A DNA stretch of 64,000 bases, taken from positions 42,784,875 to 42,848,874 of the forward strand of contig CM026561.1 of assembly GCA_015143295.1 (NCBI GenBank), written 5' to 3'. The DNA comes from Tetracentron sinense. Lineage: Eukaryota > Streptophyta > Magnoliopsida > Trochodendrales > Trochodendraceae. Shown one piece after another: positions 15,224 through 64,000 of the stretch (position 1 is the stretch's first letter; each line of letters opens with the position of its first letter). The notes under the pieces are model-generated. The model did no database searches, was not told the origin of the DNA, and saw only the letters and a program-made list of their open reading frames with translations. A program made the position numbers and the translations under genes.

Positions 15224-15873
15224 TGTGAAGAAAGACGAAATCCAATTACCGGAATTTCGCTTCTCAAAATAGTGTAGAATTACACTAGCCCAAGACTCAC
15301 CACTAAAAGAAGAAGAACAATTGAGGAAATAAGAGAGGATGAAACTATAATTTTATTCAAAAAAATAAAACTTACAAGCTTAGGTTTGAGCCACCACTTG
15401 CACAAGATATGGAACCTCGATATTGTTGAAGAGTTACTCTCTCTTGAAGGACTTATGAAGATGGGACTTGACTTGTGACTTGGGACTATGGAACTTTGAG
15501 GCTTTGATGCTTGTAGAGAGAAACCACTAAACTATGTATAGATGAAGGTTCTAAGATAAGGAAGTTGAGAACATTAATAAGGTGGTTGTATGGTGGTGGT
15601 TGAAGGAAAATAAATGAGGTGGTTGAATGAGGGAAGTTAGGAGTTTAAATGAAGGTGGATATTCTCATGAGAATATGGTCAAGTGGTGAGGTGGAAGGGA
15701 GAGAAAGAGAAAGAGAGATGGAGACATGTGTCAAACATGTGCAAGTGGGGTCAATGTACAAAAAGACAAAAATACCCTCAAATCAAATTACATATTTAGC
15801 CTCACTACATCCCTCAAAATAAAAATAGAGAACTAGACTAATATTTTCTAGAAAACACTTTAAAAATTTAACA
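15224..15873 (-). repeat. 3' LTR of the Copia element
   Basis: 650 bp, TG...CA bounded. It lies left of the coding region because the element reads on the minus strand. Confidence 0.92.
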
Positions 15874-19959: not shown

Positions 19960-19974
19960 GTGGCTCTGATACCA
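19960..19974 (-). promoter_or_regulatory. Primer binding site, initiator tRNA-Met
   Basis: On the minus strand TGGTATCAGAGCCAC directly follows the 5' LTR. It is complementary to the 3' end of plant initiator tRNA-Met, the usual Copia primer. Confidence 0.92.
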
Positions 19975-20631
19975 TGTGAAGAAAGACGAAATCCAATTAC
20001 CGGAATTTCGCTTCTCAAAATAGTGTAGAATTACACTAGCCCAAGACTCACCACCAAAAGAAGAAGAAGAACAATTGAGGAAATAAGAGAGGGGGAAACT
20101 ATAATTTCATTCAAAACAATAAAACTTACAAGCTTAGGTTTGAGCCACCACTTGCATAAGATATGAAACCTCGATATTGTTGAAGAGCTAGTCTCTCCTG
20201 AAGGACTTATGAATATGAGAATTGACTTGTGGCTTGGGACTATGGAGCTTTGAAGCTTTGATGCTTGTAGAGAGAAACCACTACACTATTTATAGATGAA
20301 GGTTGAAGGTTCTAAGATAGGGAAGTTGAGGGAATTGATAAGGTGGTTGTATGGTGGTGGTTCAAGGAAAATATATGAGGTGGTTGAATGGGGGAAGTTG
20401 GAGTTTAAAAGAAGGTGGATATTCTCATAAGAATATGGTCAAGTGGTGAGGTGAAAGGGAGAGAAAGAGAGAGAGAGATGGAGACATGTGTCAAACATGT
20501 GCAAGTGGGGCCAAGGTACAAAAAGACAAAAATACACTCAGAACAAATTACATATTTAGCCTCACTACATCCAAAAAAAAAAATAGAGAACTAGACTAAT
20601 ATTTTCTAGAAAACAATTTAAAATTTTAACA
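19975..20631 (-). repeat. 5' LTR of the Copia element
   Basis: 657 bp, starting TGTGAAG on the plus strand and ending TTTTAACA. Aligned with 15224-15873 along its whole length. Confidence 0.92.
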
Positions 20632-48980: not shown

Positions 48981-49305
48981 TTAACCACGGTGAAAGGGGA
49001 TGAAATGGGAAGACATTTGAATATTTAATCAAATGCAGGATGGGCTAATCACTACTATAAAATTACTATATTTTTATACTATGGAGATTTTTTTCACGCG
49101 CATGCCTCCCCTGCTTGACATGTGTCCCTTTTAACACATATTAACTGTGGTTAAGATTCACTCACTATTAGGGTTTATACATCTACCCATAGTTTTTATT
49201 GAAAAAAATTAACTCCTGAGATAATAAATTTTAACTAAGGTTAAAAAGGGACATAAAAAATCAATCCCTTTATAATTTACATATAAAAAAAAAGGACTTT
49301 GCTAG

Positions 49306-49457
49306 TGAGAACCCCTTAGGGCCGAGAATACCGAGATCATGCTCTAAGAGAATGAGATTTCAGGTGGGACCCATTTCACATGGTAGGCCCCACTTGAAAT
49401 CCCATGCTCTTAGAGCATGGTCTCGGTGGTCTCGGCCCTAAGGGAGTCTAAGAAAGT
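49306..49457. mobile_element. Hairpin MITE in copy 1
   Basis: Arms 'ccccttagggccgaga' ... 'tctcggccctaaggg', with further pairing through 'atgctctaagagaatg' and 'gatttcaggtgggacc'. Stem of about 65 bp with a very small loop. Confidence 0.75.
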
Positions 49458-49959
49458 TTTATCCTAAAAAAAAATGTACAATATTTTTTTGAGGCACTAT
49501 AGAAAAAATGTATATATCATATATATTTTTAAATCATAGGTATAATATATTAAGATTCAAAAAAATTGAGGAATGCTAGCCATATTCTTAGTCAACCAAT
49601 ACTCTCCCTCTCTACCAACCACCTGCCCATTTTTGTGTTAACCACGGTGAAAGAGAATGAAATGGGAAGACATTTGATTATTTAATCAAATGTGGGATGG
49701 GCTAATCACTACTATAAAATTACTATATTTTTATATTATGGAGATTTTTTTCACGTGCACGCCTCCCCTGCTTGACATGTGTCCCTTTTAACACATATTA
49801 ACTGTGGTTAAGATTCACTCACCCCTTAGGGTTTATACATCTACCCATAGTTTTTATTGAAAAAAATTAACTCATAAGATAATAAATTTTAACTAAGGTT
49901 AAAAAGGGATATAAAAAATCAATCCCTTTATAATCTACATATAAAAGAAAAGGACTTTG

Positions 49960-50116
49960 CTAGTGAGACCCCTTAGGGCCGAGACCATCGAGACCATGCT
50001 CTAAGAGAATGGGATTTCAGGTGGGACCCATTTCACATGGTAGGCCCCACCTGAAATCCCATGCTCTTAGAGCATGGTCTTGGGGTGGTCTCGGCCCTAA
50101 GGGGGTGGGTCTCAGA
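49960..50116. mobile_element. Hairpin MITE in copy 2
   Basis: The same hairpin as in copy 1, with tips tgagacccc / ggggtgggtctca. The central arms 'gggatttcaggtgggacc' and 'ggccccacctgaaatccc' pair almost perfectly. Confidence 0.75.
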
Positions 50117-50236
50117 AGTTTTATCATAAAAAAAAAAATGTACAATATTTTTTGGAGGCACTATAGAAAAAATGTCTATATTATATATGTATATTTTTAA
50201 AATCATAGGTATAATATGTTAAGATTCAAAAAAATT

Positions 50237-50380
50237 GAGGAATGCTAGCCATACTCTTAGTCAACTAATACTCTCACTCTCTACCAACCACCTGTCCATT
50301 TTTCTGTGAAAAAGTGTTTTAATCATTGCAACATGGACATGTGGTTGGTGGAGAGCTGAGAGTAGGGCTAGCACTCCTCC
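50237..50380. mobile_element. Small MITE, 144 bp
   Basis: Inverted ends gaggaatgctagcc / ggctagcactcctc, with inner pairing of 'tctaccaaccacctgtcc' and 'ggacatgtggttggtggaga'. Flanked by aaaaaatt on both sides, with one extra base on the right. Related fragments are at 43981 and 45085. Confidence 0.7.
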
Positions 50381-54338: not shown

Positions 54339-54835
54339 TATGTAGAGACCCCGAATCTTTTTCATGTTTTTACTTCAATGTATTAGGGGTATTATAGTCC
54401 TTGTGATGTTTTGATGTTTATGGTATTATATATTTATTTGGTGTGGTGTAAACTAGGCTTAATCAAACTTGTAACGGAGGGATGTCATATCACACCCTAA
54501 ATTTTAGGAAGCTCTAGTTTTGGCACCGTTTACTGGAATTGAGTGATTCTTGAACCATTAGAAAGGTGTTGGAACCCTCTTCGAAGTTCATGTTTAATTT
54601 TTTTCCTTATTTTGAGTTTAAACCAAGTCAATGGTGGGTTTTATCTGATGGAATTGCAGATCAGTCAACTTTTGGGATAATTTAGTCTATTAATTTAGTG
54701 GAATTTAGAAATTCTAAAATACCAAAAATGTTCTTTTTCGAAAGACGAATCCAACGCAAGTTGAATCGTCGAAATCCGACGAACAAGTCAAAAGTTATGG
54801 CCGAAACAGTAAAGCGGGTCAAAAATCTGTAGGCA

Positions 54836-54997
54836 ACCGATCGCTCGGTCAGAAGTAGCAATCGATCGGTCCAAAACCGATCGATCATTATCTATCGACT
54901 GGTCCAGAATTTTGTATGGGAAAAATTTCCAGAGAGTGCTTTTTTGACCGATCGACCGGTCAAGAACACCGATCGCTCGGTCATAACCACCGATCGT
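54836..54997. repeat. Palindromic CGATCGGT-type motif array in the Gypsy-type LTR
   Basis: Six or more variants of 'accgatcgctcggtc' and 'gaccgatcgaccggtc', interrupted by a 'ggtccagaattttgtatggg' block that is also found in the Copia LTR array. Confidence 0.8.
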
Positions 54998-55948
54998 TCG
55001 GTCCTTCGTATTTTTGCAGAATTTTAGTATGGGAGTTTTGGTCTTTTTTTTCTCAGACCTTGGGGCTATAAATAGGGGATCCTACTCGAAATATTAAAAT
55101 ACTCTACTTATTTCTAACCTAATTTGGCAAAAAGGGGGAGAAAACCTAGGGTTTGAGGGAGAGGGTTGCTTGGAGAAGAAGGAGGTTGCTAGAAGATTGA
55201 GAGGAAAGCTTGGAGATCGTCCTCAAAGCTTCTCCAAATCTCCTCGGGAGCGTTTGAATCCAAGGGAATGATTCCTAAGGTCGATATACTATCCTAATCA
55301 ACTCTATTTTAATGTTTTGTGAATATTAATTTGATAGAAATGATAGAATAGAGATTAAATGTATTTTTCCCAAATTTTCTATGAAGTAAGCTAATTATTG
55401 ATGGAAATGTGGATTGGATGTGGATAGAATATATGGAGGATGGGATTAATATGTGGATGTGAATAGTGAATTGATTGTATGGATGAATTATGGTTTGATG
55501 AATGCTTGAAAATATAGAAGGGAAATGGATTCATATTATGCGTACACAAGGTGTTTGTGAAAATGCTTGATAGGATAAATGCTATTATACTCTTATGAAA
55601 TAGTGGTAAATAAATCATGAATTGTGTTAAGAATTATGATAAGATATATATATGTGATTGTTTGGTAAGTATATCTAATTACTTGCATGGAAATTGGTAG
55701 TCGGGAAGGTAAGAACTTAGAGAAACATCTCTCAAACCGGGAATTCTCTAACTATTTGGTATGGGACAGTATAGTGGAGTTTCCATGGTGGGAGATCGGA
55801 ATCTAAGTAATTACCAACTCGAATGTTAATTTCGACACTTAAGCACATATGCACGTGTATGTTAAGATAAGAGTCTCACAAGTCACACATGTGGACCACA
55901 AGCATGAGCATGGTATACGTATGATATTCTGAATAAGCATAAGCATGG

Positions 55949-56085: not shown

Positions 56086-56822
56086 TTGTATGATCTGAAT
56101 AAGTGCATAAGCATAAACATCTCACAAGCACGTGGTCTCATAAGCATAAGCAGCTCATAAGTGTATTGTCTTCTAAGTCTAAGATTCTCACAAGTACACG
56201 AGTCAAGGTGATGATATGATGTATATGCGCACACGTTTTTCCGCGCTCTGATTATGTTACTATGTTATTGGATATGTTTCTAACCAAGTACAGGTATATA
56301 TTGTTGGTTGGATTTTATATACACTGAGTACCTTTGTACTCAGCCGGACTTCGTCTTGGCAGGTTTAGAGCAGGAGTACACGGCGGAGCCGTGGGTTGAG
56401 GAAACATACGCAGAGGAAGGAGGTGAAGGTGAGCCTTCTGAGGAGGGAGCCAAAGACTTGGGTGGCTACACCTCTTAGTTTTATTTCATTTGATTGAGAG
56501 AGTGTATTAGACTAGTAAATCCCTAAATAGGTGTTGGCAAATTCCGTGATCATTAGATAGGTCAGTTGAGTCGAGTCGTCGAGTCATGTTTAACTTGTCA
56601 GAAGAGAAGAGCTAAAGCTTAAAGAAGATTGAAGAAAGTGAAAGAAAAAGCTTCTACTCCGGATCTAGACAGGTAATGAACTTAGAGACCCTACCTAGGT
56701 TGGATTTGACTTAGATAACCCTAAAAATACCTAGGAGGATAGTTTTAAGCCTACCAAAGATATTTGATCTTAGTTGAATCAAATAAAAATAAAATGATAA
56801 TGGTTTTGGCAAAAATTATGTC

Positions 56823-57014
56823 TCAACCGATCGTTCGGTATTACGACCGATCGATCGGTGGCCTACCGAGCGATCGGTGGCTATCGACTGGACCAAATTT
56901 TTGTATGGAGAAATTTTCCAGAGAGATGATTTATGACCGAGCGATCGGTCATTAGAACCGATCGATCCGTTTTGAACCGAGCGATCGGTAGTGAGCACCG
57001 ATCGATCGGTCCCC
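56823..57014. repeat. Palindromic CGATCGGT-type motif array in the Copia LTR
   Basis: Eight or so variants, including the perfect 14-base palindrome accgatcgatcggt at 56846-56859 and 56997-57010. They are interrupted by 'tatcgactggaccaaatttt' and 'ttttccagagag', the same spacer as in the array at 54836-54997. It ends about 40 bases before the TATA box. The second copy is at about 62729-62917. Confidence 0.85.
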
Positions 57015-57055
57015 GTAAAAAGAATTTTTCTTTTTCTGGATTCTTTTTTTAACCC

Positions 57056-57063
57056 TATATAAA
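57056..57063 (+). promoter_or_regulatory. TATA box of the first Copia LTR
   Basis: tatataaa between the motif array and the transcribed part of the LTR. Confidence 0.7.
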
Positions 57064-57743
57064 CAACTTTTGAGAGACCTAATTCGGGTCATTGATATTT
57101 TTGAAAGAGTAGAGGTCTGAGAAACTCTTCTAGGGTTTTTCTTATTGCTTTTATTAGATCTTTGTTGATCCCTCCTCTTTCTTAGATCCTAGAGAATGCA
57201 AGTAGAGATCTAAACCTTTGATCTTGCATTGTGTGATCTCAGATCTGTATGAGATCCCTCTAGGGTTTGAAACTTACTAAATTGATTCACAACCCTACAC
57301 CTTGTGTGTGTGTCCGGTGTTTGATCCGGAGCCTTCGTGGAAGGAGATCAATCGTGTGTGATCGTGGTTTTGAAGTTGCTTGAAAAGATTTGGTCGGTGT
57401 GGAACCGAAGCTGCTAAGGCGGAGATCGAACCTGCTGGTTCGTGGAAATCAAGAGTAAGAGTCTATACCTAGGAACGTCGTTTCTGTTATGGTAAGGTGT
57501 TGTCTTGTACTTGATATCTTTTCATAGTGAAGTTTATTGCTGGACAAGGTCCCGTGGTTTTTCCCCGTTAGGGTTTTCCACGTAAAAATCTTCTGTGTTT
57601 GATTTGTGTGGATTGTCTGATTGAATTAATCATTGATTTCTAAACATATTAATTGAAAAATTAAAATTGGTTAGAAATTATTAGATAGACCTATTCACCC
57701 CCCCTCTAGGTCTTAGAGATCATTGATCTGGATAAATTTCAAT

Positions 57744-57755
57744 TGGTATCAGAGC
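57744..57755 (+). promoter_or_regulatory. Primer binding site, initiator tRNA-Met
   Basis: TGGTATCAGAGC two bases after the first LTR. Confidence 0.9.
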
Positions 57756-57808
57756 TTGTTCACTGATAAGGCTAATCCCTTAAGTGTGATCCTGTATTAT
57801 CCGTGATC

Positions 57809-60800
57809 ATGAGTACTCTAAGAGAAGGAGGATCCGTCTCTCGTCCACCACTTTTTGATGGAAATAATTATGCATACTGGAAAGCTAGAATGAGAGCCTT
57901 TCTCAAATCTATAGACGAGAGAATTTGGATGTCTATACAGAATGGGTGGACTACGCCCATAAAAACTGTAGGTGATTTGACTGTCGTCAAATATTCTGAT
58001 GAATGGACCAGAGAAGAGCTTGATTCAAGTGGATGGAACACTAAAGGTCTCAATGCTATCTTTACTGCAGTCACTGCTGAGGAATTCAGACGAATTTCTT
58101 CATGTGAAACAGCAAAGGAGGCTTGGGACATTCTTGAAATTACCCATGAGGGTACTACCACTGTTAAAATCTCAAAACTCCAAATGTTAACCACCAAATT
58201 TGAACATTTAAACATGGAAGACAATGACACTTTTGATGAATTCTATGCAAAACTTAGTGACATTGTCAATGCTAGTTTCAATTTAGGTGAGAAAATATCT
58301 GAGTCCAAAATAGTTAGAAAAGTCCTTAGATCTCTCCCAGAGAGATTTCAACCCAAAGTCACTGCAATCGAAGAGAGTAAAAATGTTGACTCTCTGAAGA
58401 TTGAGGAATTGGTTGGATCACTCCAAACCTATGAACTCAATCTACGTCCATCCAAGAAGAATAAATCTTTAGCCTTGAAAACCATCAAGGAAACTTTGGA
58501 TGAGGATGACAGTGATGGAGATATGAATGAGGAAGAAATGGCTCTTTTCGTTAAAAAATTTCAAAAATTTTTTAGAACGAAAAAGAGATTTAATCCCAAA
58601 CTGGGAGGAAAATCTTTTGAGAAGTCAAAGTCTAAGCCCTGGGAAAACAAGAAAAATTCCAAGAGTGGCGACAAGAAATCCCAAGGTGTTCAATGTTATG
58701 AATGCCATGGCTTCGGTCATATTTCACCTAACTGTCCTAACAAGAAGAAGAGTAAGGGCAAAGTGATGAATGCCTGTTGGGATGACAGTGATTCCGAGAA
58801 TGAAGAATCGGACAGTTCCTCTTCAAGTGAAGATACTGGAAATCATACGGCTTTCACTGTTTCCCTTTCTGGGATTCTTGAGACTACCTCTGCGGTTGAT
58901 GAAAATGATAGAAGTGATGAGAGTATTCATACTGAGTCTAGTGATGACTTACAGAAGAGTCAAACTGACTCTGAAAGTGATGAAGATTTGAAAACAACTT
59001 ATGATAAGTTGTATGCTGAAAGTTTGAAACTGACTAAAACAAAAATCTCTTTGAGCAAAAAACTCAAACTCATTCAAAATGAAAGAGATATCTGTAAACT
59101 AGTAGCAGAAGAGAAGAGTGCACTAGTTAGTCAGTTGGAAAATGAAAAAGAAGCATTTGTTATAAAAGTTCAATGTCTTTTGGAAGAGAATGTCTCATTG
59201 ACTAATGTGGTCAGAAAATTAGAAGTTGAAAGAGACACTTCCATGAAAGAAATTGAAGAGTTAAGAACTCTGCAAATGGAGCTGGAAACTTTTAAAGTCT
59301 CTCTTGTTGATAAGGTGAAATTTCTTGAAAAAGAACACCAAATTACCCTTAAAGACAAGACTGACTTGATTCAGAAGGTCTATACTCTTGAAAAAGAAGT
59401 AAGAATGTTTGGTAACACCAGCTGCCTAGATGAATTAGTTAGAAAGTATGGATCAAATTCTAGTAGATCTGGGATAGGACATGTTGACACACCAACTGGT
59501 CCTTTAGCTGTTGGTACAATGGCTAGTGCAGTGTTTGAGCCAATACATTCTGAACCTAAAGAAAATTTACCTTCTACATCAAGTACTAAGGCTTATACAA
59601 ATTTTGTAAAGCCTAGAAATATAGCTCCTAGAGTGAATGCTTTTAGGAATCAAATTCCTGTTAGAAGAAATCCTCCTCCTCTACCAAGATTCATACCCAC
59701 ATGTCACTTTTGTGGTGTGAAAGGTCACATTCGACCTAATTGTAATGCATTTAGGAGAGCTCCCCGAAATGGTTCATGGAACCAAAATCAAAGTCAAGGG
59801 ACTCTTCAAAGACAGATTCAGGTTCTAGCTGAAAAGTCTAGAATGTTGAGCGATGATGTTAATAGAATTGCTCAAATCTCTAGGACAAGAACTGGTCAAT
59901 TTATTCCAAATGATTATTCAAGAGGAAATAATTTGACTTATCAAAAACCTAGAACTGAACAAAATAGAAAAAGGTCAAGGAGGACAAAAAGGAAAAAGGT
60001 CTCTACTACACAGATTAATGATCAAAGATCTAAACAAAGTTTAAAGACTGTGTATGTAAGAAAAAAAGACCTTAAGTGCTTTGTCATTCATACTGCCTTG
60101 AAAGCCCAAAACACAGAAATGTGGTACTTCGACAGTGGGTGTTCTCGGCATATGACAGGTAACAAGTCCTTATTTATTCAATTTGAGGACTGTCCTGATG
60201 GGACTGTTACTTTTGGTGATGGAAGCAAGTCTTTAGTCAAAGGAAAGGGTATCATCGATTCACCAGGCATACCTAAATTGAAAGATGCCTTGTTTGTTGA
60301 AGGACTGAAAGCTAATTTAATTAGCATAAGTCAACTATGTGATGATAATCATGCTGTGCACTTTACCCAAAATAAATGCTTAGTCATTAATGGTAAAGGT
60401 AAGTGTGTTCTAGAAGGATTGAGAACCACTGACAATTGCTACGGCTTAACTCCCAGTCCTATTCCCTCAAATGTCTGTTATAAGACTAAAATTGAGGAGG
60501 TTGATTTGTGGCACCGAAGACTAGGTCACATGAACTTCAAAGACCTATGTAAAATCTCTAAGCAAGAGCTTGTGAGAGGTGTTCCCAAACTAGGAAAGCC
60601 TTCTACTGCTGTGTGTGGGCCATGCCAAATTGGTAAACAAATTAGGACCCCACATAAGAAGACTTCAAGTATTGCTACTTCATATCCACTGGAATTATTT
60701 CATATGGACCTTATGGGTCCTACAAGAACTGAAAGTCTAGGTGGAAAGCGATACATCCTAGTCATGGTTGATAATTTCTCAAGAATGTCATGGGTGGCAT

Positions 60801-62524
60801 TTATAAGAGAGAAATCCGATGCTTTTGACAATTTCAAAAGTATTTGCCTGAAAATTCAAAATGAGAAAAGATGCCCAATCACTCGAATTCGAAGTGATCA
60901 TGGAAAGGAGTTTGAAAACTCTAAGTACAACGACTTTTGTGATGAGTCGGGTATCAAACATGAATTTTCTGCACCTATTACACCTCAGCAGAATGGTGTA
61001 GTAGAGAGGAAGAACAGGGTTCTCCAAGAGATGGCTAGAGTTATGCTTCATAGCAACAATCTAGCTTCTCATTTCTGGGCTGAGGCAGTTAACACTGCTT
61101 GCTATATAGTTAATAGAGTTTTTGTAAGACCTGGAACAAGGAAAACCCCATATGAGTTGTGGAATAACAAGAAACCTAGTGTCAAGTACTTTCGAGAATT
61201 CGGAAGTAAATGCTATATCCTTAAGGATAGAGAGCAACTGGGCAAATTTGAATCCCGGAGTGATGAATGGATATTTCTTGGATATTCCACCAACAGTAGA
61301 GCTTATCGAGTGTATAACTTGAGAACCTCTACAATTATGGAGTCCATAAATGTAGTTGTGGATGACTCCGGTGTTGAAAATGTGCAACGTGAGGATGATG
61401 AAAGTGCTGAAAATGAAAATGTTGAAATTATTTCAACTCCACCTATTGATAAGCAAACATCTCCATCAAAACCTACACATCCTAGGGTCATGAGTCCTCA
61501 CACCCCCACTGATATAATTGGTGATGTTGAAAGTGGAGTGAGAACGAGGAAACAAATTGAAAATGAAGTTAGCTACATTTGCTATACTTCATCTTTTGAA
61601 CCCAAGAATGTAACTGAAGCTCTTGCAGATGATAATTGGATAAATGCAATGCAAGAAGAGTTACTTCAGTTTACTAGGAATGATGTTTGGTATTTAGTAC
61701 CTAGGCCTAACAATACAAATGTGATAGGTACCAAATGGATTTTCAAGAACAAATCTGATGAAAAAGGTACTATCATAAGAAATAAGGCTAGGTTAGTTGC
61801 ACAAGGATACACCCAAATTGAAGGTATTGACTTCGATGAAACTTTTGCTCCTGTAGCCAGGCTAGAATCAATAAGAATTCTTCTAGCTGTGGCTTGTCAT
61901 ATGAAATTCAAACTTTTTCAAATGGATGTTAAGAGTGTCTTTCTGAATGACATTCTACATGAAGAAGTCTATGTGGAACAACCAAAAGGGTTTGAAGATC
62001 CACATCACCTTGATCAAGTTTATCGACTAAAAAGGACCCTCTACGGTTTAAAGCAAGCTCCAAGAGCTTGGTATGAGAGGCTGACTACTTATCTCTTGGA
62101 AAACGGATTTTCGAGAGGGGGAGTAGACAGAACCCTTTTCATAAAGAAAGTGAAAGGTGATATTGTCATCGCCCAGATATATGTTGATGACATAGTATTT
62201 GGTTCCACATTAGACTTACATGCTCATTCATTTGCTGAACAAATGAAAAATGAATTTGAAATGAGCATGGTTGGTGAGCTAAGTTTCTTCCTTGGTCTTC
62301 AGATCAAGCAATTGGATTCTGGGATCTCAGTATCTCAAATCAAATATGCAAAAAATCTAGTGAAGAAATTTGGAATGAGTTCTGCTAAGCATGCTAGGAC
62401 TCCTATGAGTACTACTATAAAGCTTAGTAAAGATACTTCAGGGAAGGATGTCGATCAGACTAATTATAGGTCAGTTGAGTCGAGTCGTCGAGTCATGTTT
62501 AACTTGTCAGAAGAGAAGAGCTAA
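57809..62524 (+). CDS. Copia (SIRE-type) gag-pol polyprotein, truncated and fused to LTR sequence
   Basis: 1571 codons open from ATG at 57809; the GTG six bases earlier is not used. GAG: N-terminal [13 protein letters not shown], zinc knuckle [14 protein letters not shown] (residues 296-309), a Lys/Glu-rich coiled-coil-like stretch at about 400-560, and a second knuckle [14 protein letters not shown] (632-645). Protease: DSGCSRH at 775. Pre-integrase: [11 protein letters not shown] and CGPCQIGK. Integrase catalytic residues D967, D1030 and E1066 (DDx35E). [24 protein letters not shown] and YVDD at 1458-1461. From about codon 1553 the frame leaves pol and reads LTR sequence for some 18 codons to the stop. 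RNase H and anything beyond are missing, so this copy cannot be autonomous as drawn, although every other catalytic motif is intact. Such elements encode capsid and replication enzymes for cytoplasmic reverse transcription and nuclear integration. Confidence 0.93.
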
Positions 62525-63648
62525 AGCTTAAAGAAGATTGAAGAAAGTGAAGAAAAGCTTCTACTCCGGATCTAGACAGGTAATGAACTTAGAGACCCTA
62601 CCTAGGTGGATTTGACTTAGATAACCCTAAAAATACCTAGGAGGATAGTTTTAAGCCTACCAAAGATATTTGATCTTAGTTGAATCAAATAAAAATAAAA
62701 TGATAATGGTTTTGGCAAAAATTATGTCTCAACCGATCGTTCGGTATTACGACCGATCGATCGGTGGCCTACCGAGCGATCGGTGGCTATCGACTGGACC
62801 AAATTTTTGTATGGAGAAATTTTCCAGAGAGATGATTTATGACCGAGCGATCGGTCATTAGAACCGATCGATCCGTTTTGAACCGAGCGATCGGTAGTGA
62901 GCACCGATCGATCGGTCCCCGTAAAAAGAATTTTTCTTTTTCTGGATTCTTTTTTTAACCCTATATAAACAACTTTTGAGAGACCTAATTCGGGTCATTG
63001 ATATTTTTGAAAGAGTAGAGGTCTGAGAAACTCTTCTAGGGTTTTTCTTATTGCTTTTATTAGATCTTTGTTGATCCCTCCTCTTTCTTAGATCCTAGAG
63101 AATGCAAGTAGAGATCTAAACCTTTGATCTTGCATTGTGTGATCTCAGATCTGTATGAGATCCCTCTAGGGTTTGAAACTTACTAAATTGATTCACAACC
63201 CTACACCTTGTGTGTGTGTCCGGTGTTTGATCCGGAGCCTTCGTGGAAGGAGATCGATCGTGTGTGATCGTGGATTTGAAGTTGCTTGAAAAGATTTGGT
63301 CGGTGTGGAACCGAAGCTGCTAAGGCGGAGATCGAACCTGCTGGTTCGTGGAAATCAAGAGTAAGAGTCTATACCTAGGAACGTCGTTTCTGTTTTGGTA
63401 AGGTCTTGTCTTGTACTTGATATCTTTTCATAGTGAAGTTTATTGCTGGACAAGGTCCCGTGGTTTTTTTCCCGTTAGGGTTTTCCACGTAAAAATCTTC
63501 TGTGTTTGATTTGTGTGGATTGTCTGATTGAATTAATCATTGATTTCTAAACATATTAATTGAAAAATTAAAATTGGTTAGAAATTATTAGATAGACCTA
63601 TTCACCCCCCCTCTAGGTCTTAGAGATCATTGATCTGGATAAATTTCA
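62466..63648 (+). repeat. Second LTR (first 25 bases missing)
   Basis: Matches 56557-57741 with a few single-base differences (for example 'gaaagaaaaag' versus 'gaagaaaag', 'atcaatcg' versus 'atcgatcg', and 'ttatggtaaggtg' versus 'tttggtaaggtc'). It is joined directly to RT coding sequence, with no polypurine tract in front. TATA box at 62962-62969. Confidence 0.9.
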
Positions 63649-63650
63649 AT

Positions 63651-63662
63651 TGGTATCAGAGC
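63651..63662 (+). promoter_or_regulatory. Primer binding site, second copy
   Basis: TGGTATCAGAGC, same spacing from the LTR end as in the first copy. Confidence 0.9.
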
Positions 63663-63715
63663 TTGTTCACTGATAAGGCTAATCCCTTAAGTGTGATCCT
63701 GTATTATCCGTGATC

Positions 63716-64000
63716 ATGAGTACTCTAAGAGAAGGAGGATCCGTCTCTCGTCCACCACTTTTTGATGGAAATAATTATGCATACTGGAAAGCTAGAATGA
63801 GAGCCTTTCTCAAATCTATAGACGAGAGAATTTGGATGTCTATACAGAATGGGTGGACTACGCCCATAAAAACTGTAGGTGATTTGACTGTCGTCAAATA
63901 TTCTGATGAATGGACCAGAGAAGAGCTTGATTCAAGTGGATGGAACACTAAAGGTCTCAATGCTATCTTTACTGCAGTCACTGCTGAGGAATTCAGACGA
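63716..64000 (+). CDS. Second Copia gag, 5' part (runs off the window)
   Basis: ATG at 63716; 95 codons visible, reading as the first copy ([14 protein letters not shown] onward) with no difference noticed. It shows that the second LTR is followed by another internal region rather than by flanking DNA. Confidence 0.93.
   Translation, partial: MSTLREGGSVSRPPLFDGNNYAYWKARMRAFLKSIDERIWMSIQNGWTTPIKTVGDLTVVKYSDEWTREELDSSGWNTKGLNAIFTAVTAEEFRR

Follow-up and report, generated by a model that had tools for sequence, protein, structure and literature searches.

Introduction

Tandem arrays of LTR retrotransposons with common internal LTRs have been described in rice, Arabidopsis, almond and cotton, and in the portion of that report considered here 10 of 28 selected rice cases had perfect 5-nt target duplications at their flanks (PMC11899658). 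Break-induced replication and fork-stalling template switching are named, in the excerpt of a second report considered here, for microhomology-mediated tandem duplication (PMC3744419). For the SIRE lineage of Ty1/copia, an extra forward ORF between pol and the 3' LTR is given for 74% of elements in the part of a third report used here (PMC6317226).

We describe a locus of Tetracentron sinense that begins within a window of 64,000 nucleotides, this being the whole stretch of DNA that was analysed, and that continues beyond its end. Like the arrays of the first report, in the portion considered here, it has head-to-tail units of one element and an internal LTR; however, those arrays have internal LTRs common to alternating units, whereas here the joint runs from pol to LTR position 44 (PMC11899658). 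Whole LTRs and internal regions do not alternate at this locus, the second LTR being cut at its head and unit 1 at its pol end. Microhomology-mediated tandem duplication, as the excerpt presents it, is resembled in the direct tandem copy and the few common bases at the joint, but here the event lies entirely within a retrotransposon and the pathway is one that we infer (PMC3744419). The element has the marks of Ty1/copia, namely a Copia gag, integrase before reverse transcriptase (RT), a copia-type RT, LTRs, a primer site, a polypurine tract and a 5-bp target duplication. Its Copia domain order, tRNA-Met-type primer site and extra forward ORF after pol resemble the SIRE lineage as described in the part of the report used here (PMC6317226), and we call it SIRE-like, a probable assignment that is based on domain order, primer site and extra ORF.

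Results

Comparison of the window with itself gave, as the longest repeat pair listed, 56557-58093 and 62466-64000, at an offset of 5909 and with 99.4% identity over 1538 columns, of which 10 differ; a first-pass annotation of the window had noticed this direct repeat from 56557 at 62466, at more than 99%, and is borne out. LTR1 (56514-57741, forward strand, 1228 bp) was delimited by comparison with other copies and with LTR3. Its first base is A where other copies have the T of TG, so that it begins AGTAAATCCC, whereas four other copies, a fifth copy (L026) and LTR3 begin TGTAAATCCC; LTR1 therefore starts at 56514 and LTR2 at LTR position 44. The first-pass annotation had set the LTR start at 56532 (TGTTGGCAAATT) and the junction at LTR position 26 with 25 bases missing, which must be corrected: 43 LTR bases are absent at the joint. 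LTR2 (62466-63648, forward strand) was delimited by the repeat comparison and other copies, and LTR3 (72336-73563, forward strand, outside the window) by other copies and a reading of its boundary. The primer-site-like TGGTATCAGAGC, which we take to be the complement of initiator tRNA-Met, lies 3' of both LTR1 (57744-57755) and LTR2 (63651-63662), both placed by motif position on the forward strand, in agreement with the earlier observation that the second LTR is again followed by a primer site.

A single target duplication, AGACT, brackets the entire array, its left copy at 56509-56513 and its right copy at 73564-73568, outside the window. The empty site, reconstructed by joining the flanks with one base left out, matched 40 of 40 scored places at 98-99% (1965 candidates), the joined flanks corresponding to dispersed repeats. 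Reading beyond 64000, we found two units, after which the array stops at 73563; the downstream unit is complete, and there is no third unit in the 20 kb read downstream. The first-pass annotation had named a further unit with RNase H and a polypurine tract as a sign of deletion in a recombined array; a complete downstream unit is there, but it does not separate the possible origins, because a one-step duplication leaves an identical picture.

Unit 1 has an open gag-pol frame (57803-62524, forward strand, stop at 62524) with the order gag, zinc-knuckle match (weak, under its curated cut-off), integrase, near-complete RT and then the joint. Pfam matches are, in order, Retrotran_gag_2, gag_pre-integrs, rve and RVT_2 (1.3e-71), and no protease was matched by Pfam in the gag-pol frame. 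Past the joint the frame continues for about 19 codons of LTR2, stop included, such that the last 18 pol residues beyond the joint tyrosine are LTR-derived, and unit 1 has neither pol end nor polypurine tract. The internal region of unit 2 (forward strand) occupies 63649-64000 in the window and runs on to 72335 outside it, with pol, extra ORF and polypurine tract followed by LTR3. Outside the window, the rest of pol continues in frame at 67984-69030; Pfam names the RT part alone in this frame to 69030, a comparison of this part of pol with solved structures gave no match, and a putative RNase H is presumably located in the pol end, as its position and an end motif suggest. Further downstream are the extra forward ORF between pol and the 3' LTR (70424-71686; 420 codons; Transposase_32 domain, 2.5e-23) and the polypurine tract directly before 72336. 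No function is evident for the array structure.

At the joint (ATAG, 62466-62469, forward strand), where RT passes to LTR position 44, unit 2 reads AATTATAG-AAGCATG, LTR1 TTAGATAG-GTCAG and the joint AATTATAG-GTCAG, the pol frame crossing into LTR2 over the common ATAG. In a profile search, RT is matched up to position 243 of the 244 in the profile ahead of the break. The earlier reading that pol enters the LTR at the RT end with only ATAG in common holds. A longer microhomology, guessed from YRS kept in the junction peptide, was ruled out, the common stretch being 4 bp. At a random joint, 4 matching bases would be expected with a probability of approximately 0.02, and microhomology is therefore likely, on the evidence of one joint. 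A 35-base joint pattern, allowed up to 3 mismatches, matched once in 1.16 Gb and 0 times in a reversed control, so the joint is not a chance match; this also ruled out a spreading deleted family carrying the joint. Among 40 scored of 3463 candidates the locus itself alone spans the joint, and at each of the 29 further RT loci that were fetched the sequence continues into ordinary pol. In these comparisons L010 and L025 represent a single locus and L013 and L026 another; plasmid loci L003 and L004 were left out. No close RT copy was found in viral contigs (8 and 161 stretches pattern-matched, none confirmed), phages (no match), plasmids (4 distant records) or species genomes (64 stretches; 3 distant contigs). 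In the related copy L026, a pol-to-LTR deletion of its own lies within a single GATAA target duplication.

LTR1 and LTR2 have in common five derived bases that neither LTR3 nor the C16 sister element carries. Four occur in 0 of 17 other distinct LTRs and the fifth recurs in one, one of the 17 having no sequence at two of the five sites; derived bases common to LTR2 and LTR3 only were not found in these alignments. L009 (386 bases only) was counted where present, L022 has no sequence for part of the LTR, and pieces of up to 600 bases (up to 800 in one comparison) were left out. After LTR1 itself, the best match to the LTR head is the array's LTR2 (40 scored of 3678 candidates). LTR1 and LTR2 differ at 6 of 1182 positions and LTR1 and LTR3 at 15 of 1185, a contrast that is weak by itself (Fisher p 0.077); for the 5:0 split the one-sided value is 0.03. 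A substitution rate of 1.3e-8 per site per year would put LTR1-LTR3 at about 0.49 My and LTR1-LTR2 at about 0.2 My, dates that are tentative given the mixed look of unit 2. LTR1 agrees with LTR3 against LTR2 at 57368, 57563 and perhaps 56643; at these sites LTR2 is either gapped or in the state of the family. The changes expected to be shared between a copy and its source are thus found at five LTR1-LTR2 sites, with two to three contrary sites that count against duplication, being unexpected in a plain copy of LTR1.

The five derived bases, the single AGACT pair and the unique joint favour duplication after insertion over the two other origins that the first-pass annotation had listed beside it, LTR recombination or concatemer insertion, each with deletion, which are less well supported. 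In the first, an unequal LTR1/LTR3 crossover giving LTR-int-LTR-int-LTR would be followed by a deletion of about 4.0 kb taking the end of pol, the extra ORF, the polypurine tract and the head of LTR2. Each step is known in plants, L026 provides a pol-to-LTR deletion within one target duplication, and tandem LTR elements are common, at least in the portion of the tandem-array report considered here (PMC11899658). However, two events are required, and a crossover predicts an LTR3-like 5' part of LTR2, whereas from LTR position 166 on this part is like LTR1 and has none of LTR3's seven own changes; the crossover would have to sit in the first 166 or so LTR positions, unless LTR3 acquired its changes afterwards. 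We consider this origin highly unlikely; the LTR genealogy separates duplication from LTR recombination modestly. Still less probable, to the point of being very doubtful, is a ready-made tandem inserted in one step, derived either from a one-LTR circle by way of a read-through transcript or from a circle that had closed at this joint. The single target duplication framing the array and the two to three LTR1-LTR3 agreements would suit it, and a tandem-transcript route is proposed for rice tandems in the portion considered here (PMC11899658), but it predicts LTR1 and LTR3 to be closest, where LTR1 and LTR2 are, with their five derived bases, barring later LTR1/LTR2 conversion, and the joint is absent elsewhere in 1.16 Gb.

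In 4569 coding positions unit 1 has 11 private substitutions and unit 2 has 0 (two-sided probability 0.001), none of the unit 1 changes being present in unit 2. Each of the 11 rows other than unit 2 carries between 8 and 49 (L021, L024 and L026 cover the region in part). The 11:0 split counts against duplication, for which an even split between sister copies is expected. The unit 2 coding part has three indels, all at family-variable sites, and LTR2 three more length differences, two at variable sites; indels occur in 5 of the 11 other rows (7 in total), with deletions at sites that have one base elsewhere. The assembled second copy thus looks read-mixed, as a mixed-read consensus would in a large, very similar family (4633 candidates, 32 scored). 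These features would fit an assembly artefact, in which one ordinary element acquired an extra 5.9-kb copy from a chimeric read, filled with unit 1 and family reads. Assembly mis-joins normally follow long overlap, whereas this joint is 4 bp inside unlike sequences; moreover, the LTR2 front retains alleles seen at this locus only, there is no N in the 20 kb from 63501 onward, and the contig is 45 Mb. We regard an artefact, a concern that the first-pass annotation had raised, as unlikely, though it deserves serious attention. A real but renewed second copy, made by repair that started on LTR1 at ATAG and then took as its template a young copy of the family, the cDNA of such a copy or a circle, is a more doubtful proposition; if true, about 5 kb of unit 2 would be free of old mutations, which LTR1, unit 1, the 3' part and LTR3 would have kept, and one-sided template-switching repair would rejuvenate an old retrotransposon in place.

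Discussion

The assembly has at this locus the two-unit structure, the single target duplication, the unique joint and an LTR2 front akin to LTR1. We think it probable that a direct tandem duplication of the 5' part of the element, via ATAG microhomology, followed insertion; correct assembly, the timing and the repair pathway are what we infer. A single SIRE-like Copia element would have inserted into a dispersed repeat, making the AGACT duplication; later, at the same locus, 5909 bp from LTR position 44 to just beyond the RT domain would have been duplicated in direct tandem and joined via the 4-bp ATAG, probably either by microhomology-mediated end joining of sister chromatids or by replication template switching. 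The product would be LTR1-gag-pol(cut) / LTR2(cut)-gag-pol-extra ORF-LTR3. Such a rearrangement appears ordinary in kind, with unusually clear joints.

Where an assembly contains retrotransposon copies in tandem, their interiors may be mixed with sequence from other copies and should be read with caution. If the assembly is right, the locus would be a fully bounded duplicated LTR element that arose by local rearrangement, not by ready-made tandem insertion, at which three LTRs help to distinguish the two.

Results

The longest pair among those listed in the self-comparison of the window joins 56557-58093 to 62466-64000 at 99.4% identity, with 10 of 1538 columns differing. This agrees with the first-pass annotation, in which sequence from 56557 was said to recur from 62466 at over 99% identity and to be followed, after the second LTR (LTR2), by a further primer site and gag; the primer site lies at 63651, and gag restarts. 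In unit 1 the gag-pol frame is open across 57803-62524 and encodes, in Copia order, domains for gag, integrase and RT; its RT profile is matched up to position 243 of 244, after which LTR sequence enters the frame. Here the sequence is AATTATAGAAGCATG in unit 2, AATTATAGGTCAG in unit 1 and TTAGATAGGTCAG in the first LTR (LTR1), with only the four bases 'atag' in common, as had been noted from the sequence; a match of at least four bases at a random joint has a probability of about 0.016 to 0.02. A 35-base joint pattern occurs once in the 1.16-Gb genome at up to 3 mismatches (control, 0), only the array's own locus spans the joint among the best 40 of 3463 candidates for a 401-base joint query, and pol continues normally in 29/29 other RT loci (30 fetched from the best 40 of 1473 candidates, one being the array's own). 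The repeat and its joint are a real feature of the assembly. Separately, a related copy, L026 (C13:31149696-31156696), has a pol-to-LTR deletion joint within one GATAA target duplication.

The LTR opens with TGTAAATCCC in four other copies (L009, L010, L012 and L015), in L026 and in the third LTR (LTR3), while the left end of the array, at the start of LTR1, reads AGTAAATCCC; L011 and L013, shown in the opposite orientation, form no part of this evidence. Because of these openings LTR1 is placed from 56514 and LTR2 from LTR position 44, replacing the earlier placement of the LTR start at 56532 and the joint at LTR position 26. AGACT stands immediately 5' of LTR1 and immediately 3' of LTR3, and the host flanks, joined with one AGACT and queried without one base of the right flank, match 40/40 scored places (the best 40 of 1965 candidates) at 98-99%, 37 over the full query length and 3 slightly shorter. 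The array is therefore a single insertion within a dispersed repeat. From its sequence features we take this host repeat to be a putative Gypsy LTR. It shares about 170 bp (54834-55003) with the Copia LTR (56824-56989) at 74% (E 4e-23), comprising palindromic CGATCG-type repeats and, beyond these, 44 bp that match at 86%, and these apparently unrelated elements seem to have an LTR module in common.

The window occupies 42784875-42848874 of contig C11, and reading past 64000, as the first-pass annotation had advised, recovered the remainder of a second unit; no further unit appeared in the 20 kb covered, up to window coordinate 83500. Unit 2 is 99.6% identical to unit 1 across 57594-62469, and its pol extends beyond the unit 1 break point as far as 69030, in a frame that small indels split into pieces as assembled. 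Downstream lie an extra frame (70424-71686; 420 codons; Transposase_32, 2.5e-23), a purine-rich tract and LTR3 (72336-73563). According to PMC6317226, 74% of SIRE elements carry an additional forward ORF.

Elsewhere in the window, adjoining direct repeats of about 660 bp each occupy 48981-50307 at 92.6% identity. Another direct pair, 15224-15873 and 19975-20631 (92% identity, about 4.1 kb apart), has a minus-strand primer-site motif beside its second member, at 19963, and is possibly another LTR element. Outside the plant, two small 'plasmids' of soil Streptomycetaceae (NZ_CP115454 and NZ_CP115302) carry a gene for a Copia-type RT with about 32-33% identity to that of the window, and are perhaps eukaryotic DNA filed as plasmids.

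Discussion

LTR1 and LTR3 are expected to be alike at the time of insertion, and a ready-made concatemer would leave them the closest pair; however, LTR1 and LTR2 differ at 6/1182 positions, versus 15/1185 for LTR1 and LTR3 (LTR2 and LTR3, 15/1182). A crossover between LTRs predicts an LTR3-like front to LTR2, but five derived bases (56679, 56818, 56834, 56843 and 56909) join LTR2 to LTR1 instead, being absent from LTR3, from the C16 sister (L065) and from the copies first examined where sequence is present. Four of these occur in 0/17 other LTRs, counted once per locus with L022 lacking sequence at two of the five sites, and the fifth also in one, L068. No derived base is common to LTR2 and LTR3 at any site compared; they agree against LTR1 at three sites, the minority base always being that of LTR1 (at 57350 also present in L019). 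This distribution therefore fits the prediction of a 5' part duplicated after insertion. The test is small: 5 versus 0 sites has a one-sided probability of 0.03, and the difference in divergence, taken by itself, gives p 0.077. Among the routes listed in the first-pass annotation, tandem duplication by microhomology is modestly favoured by the three-LTR test, with LTR recombination and concatemer insertion fitting less well.

Some evidence is at odds with a plain copy. LTR1 equals LTR3 at 57368, 57563 and perhaps 56643, where LTR2 carries the family base or a gap. Across 4569 coding positions no private substitution occurs in the second copy, against 11 in unit 1 and 8 to 49 in the other ten rows, three of them partial. 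The three indels in this part of the second copy all fall where family bases vary; LTR2 has three other length differences, two at variable sites and one at a non-variable site. As a control, 5/11 other rows hold 7 indels in total, the deletions among them lying where the remaining rows agree on a single base. In the single-copy stretch that comes next, 68376-72335, 45 of 3940 positions carry private substitutions: 24 fall in the first half (5 to 20 in the eight panel copies) and 21 in the second (5 to 144, the 144 being the poorly aligned L031). The C16 sister lay outside this panel, so some of the 45 are subfamily variants. The misfits of the assembled second copy (62466-68375) point to a consensus of mixed reads or to conversion, and would be explained by a genuine recent copy into whose consensus reads from other copies were mixed, by an artefactual copy in the assembly, or by conversion by a young family copy.

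Tandem LTR elements sharing internal LTRs are described as common in plants in PMC11899658, which keeps both recombination and tandem insertion as possible origins; PMC7004042 deals with short tandem repeats within Ogre elements rather than with whole units. A limited literature search found no published tandem element with a pol-to-LTR joint, which does not prove absence. Among the routes to tandem duplication, PMC3744419 names break-induced replication and fork-stalling template switching linked to microhomology. The feature is most likely a 5909-bp microhomology duplication within a single Copia insertion, with no evident function, and is an ordinary kind of event.
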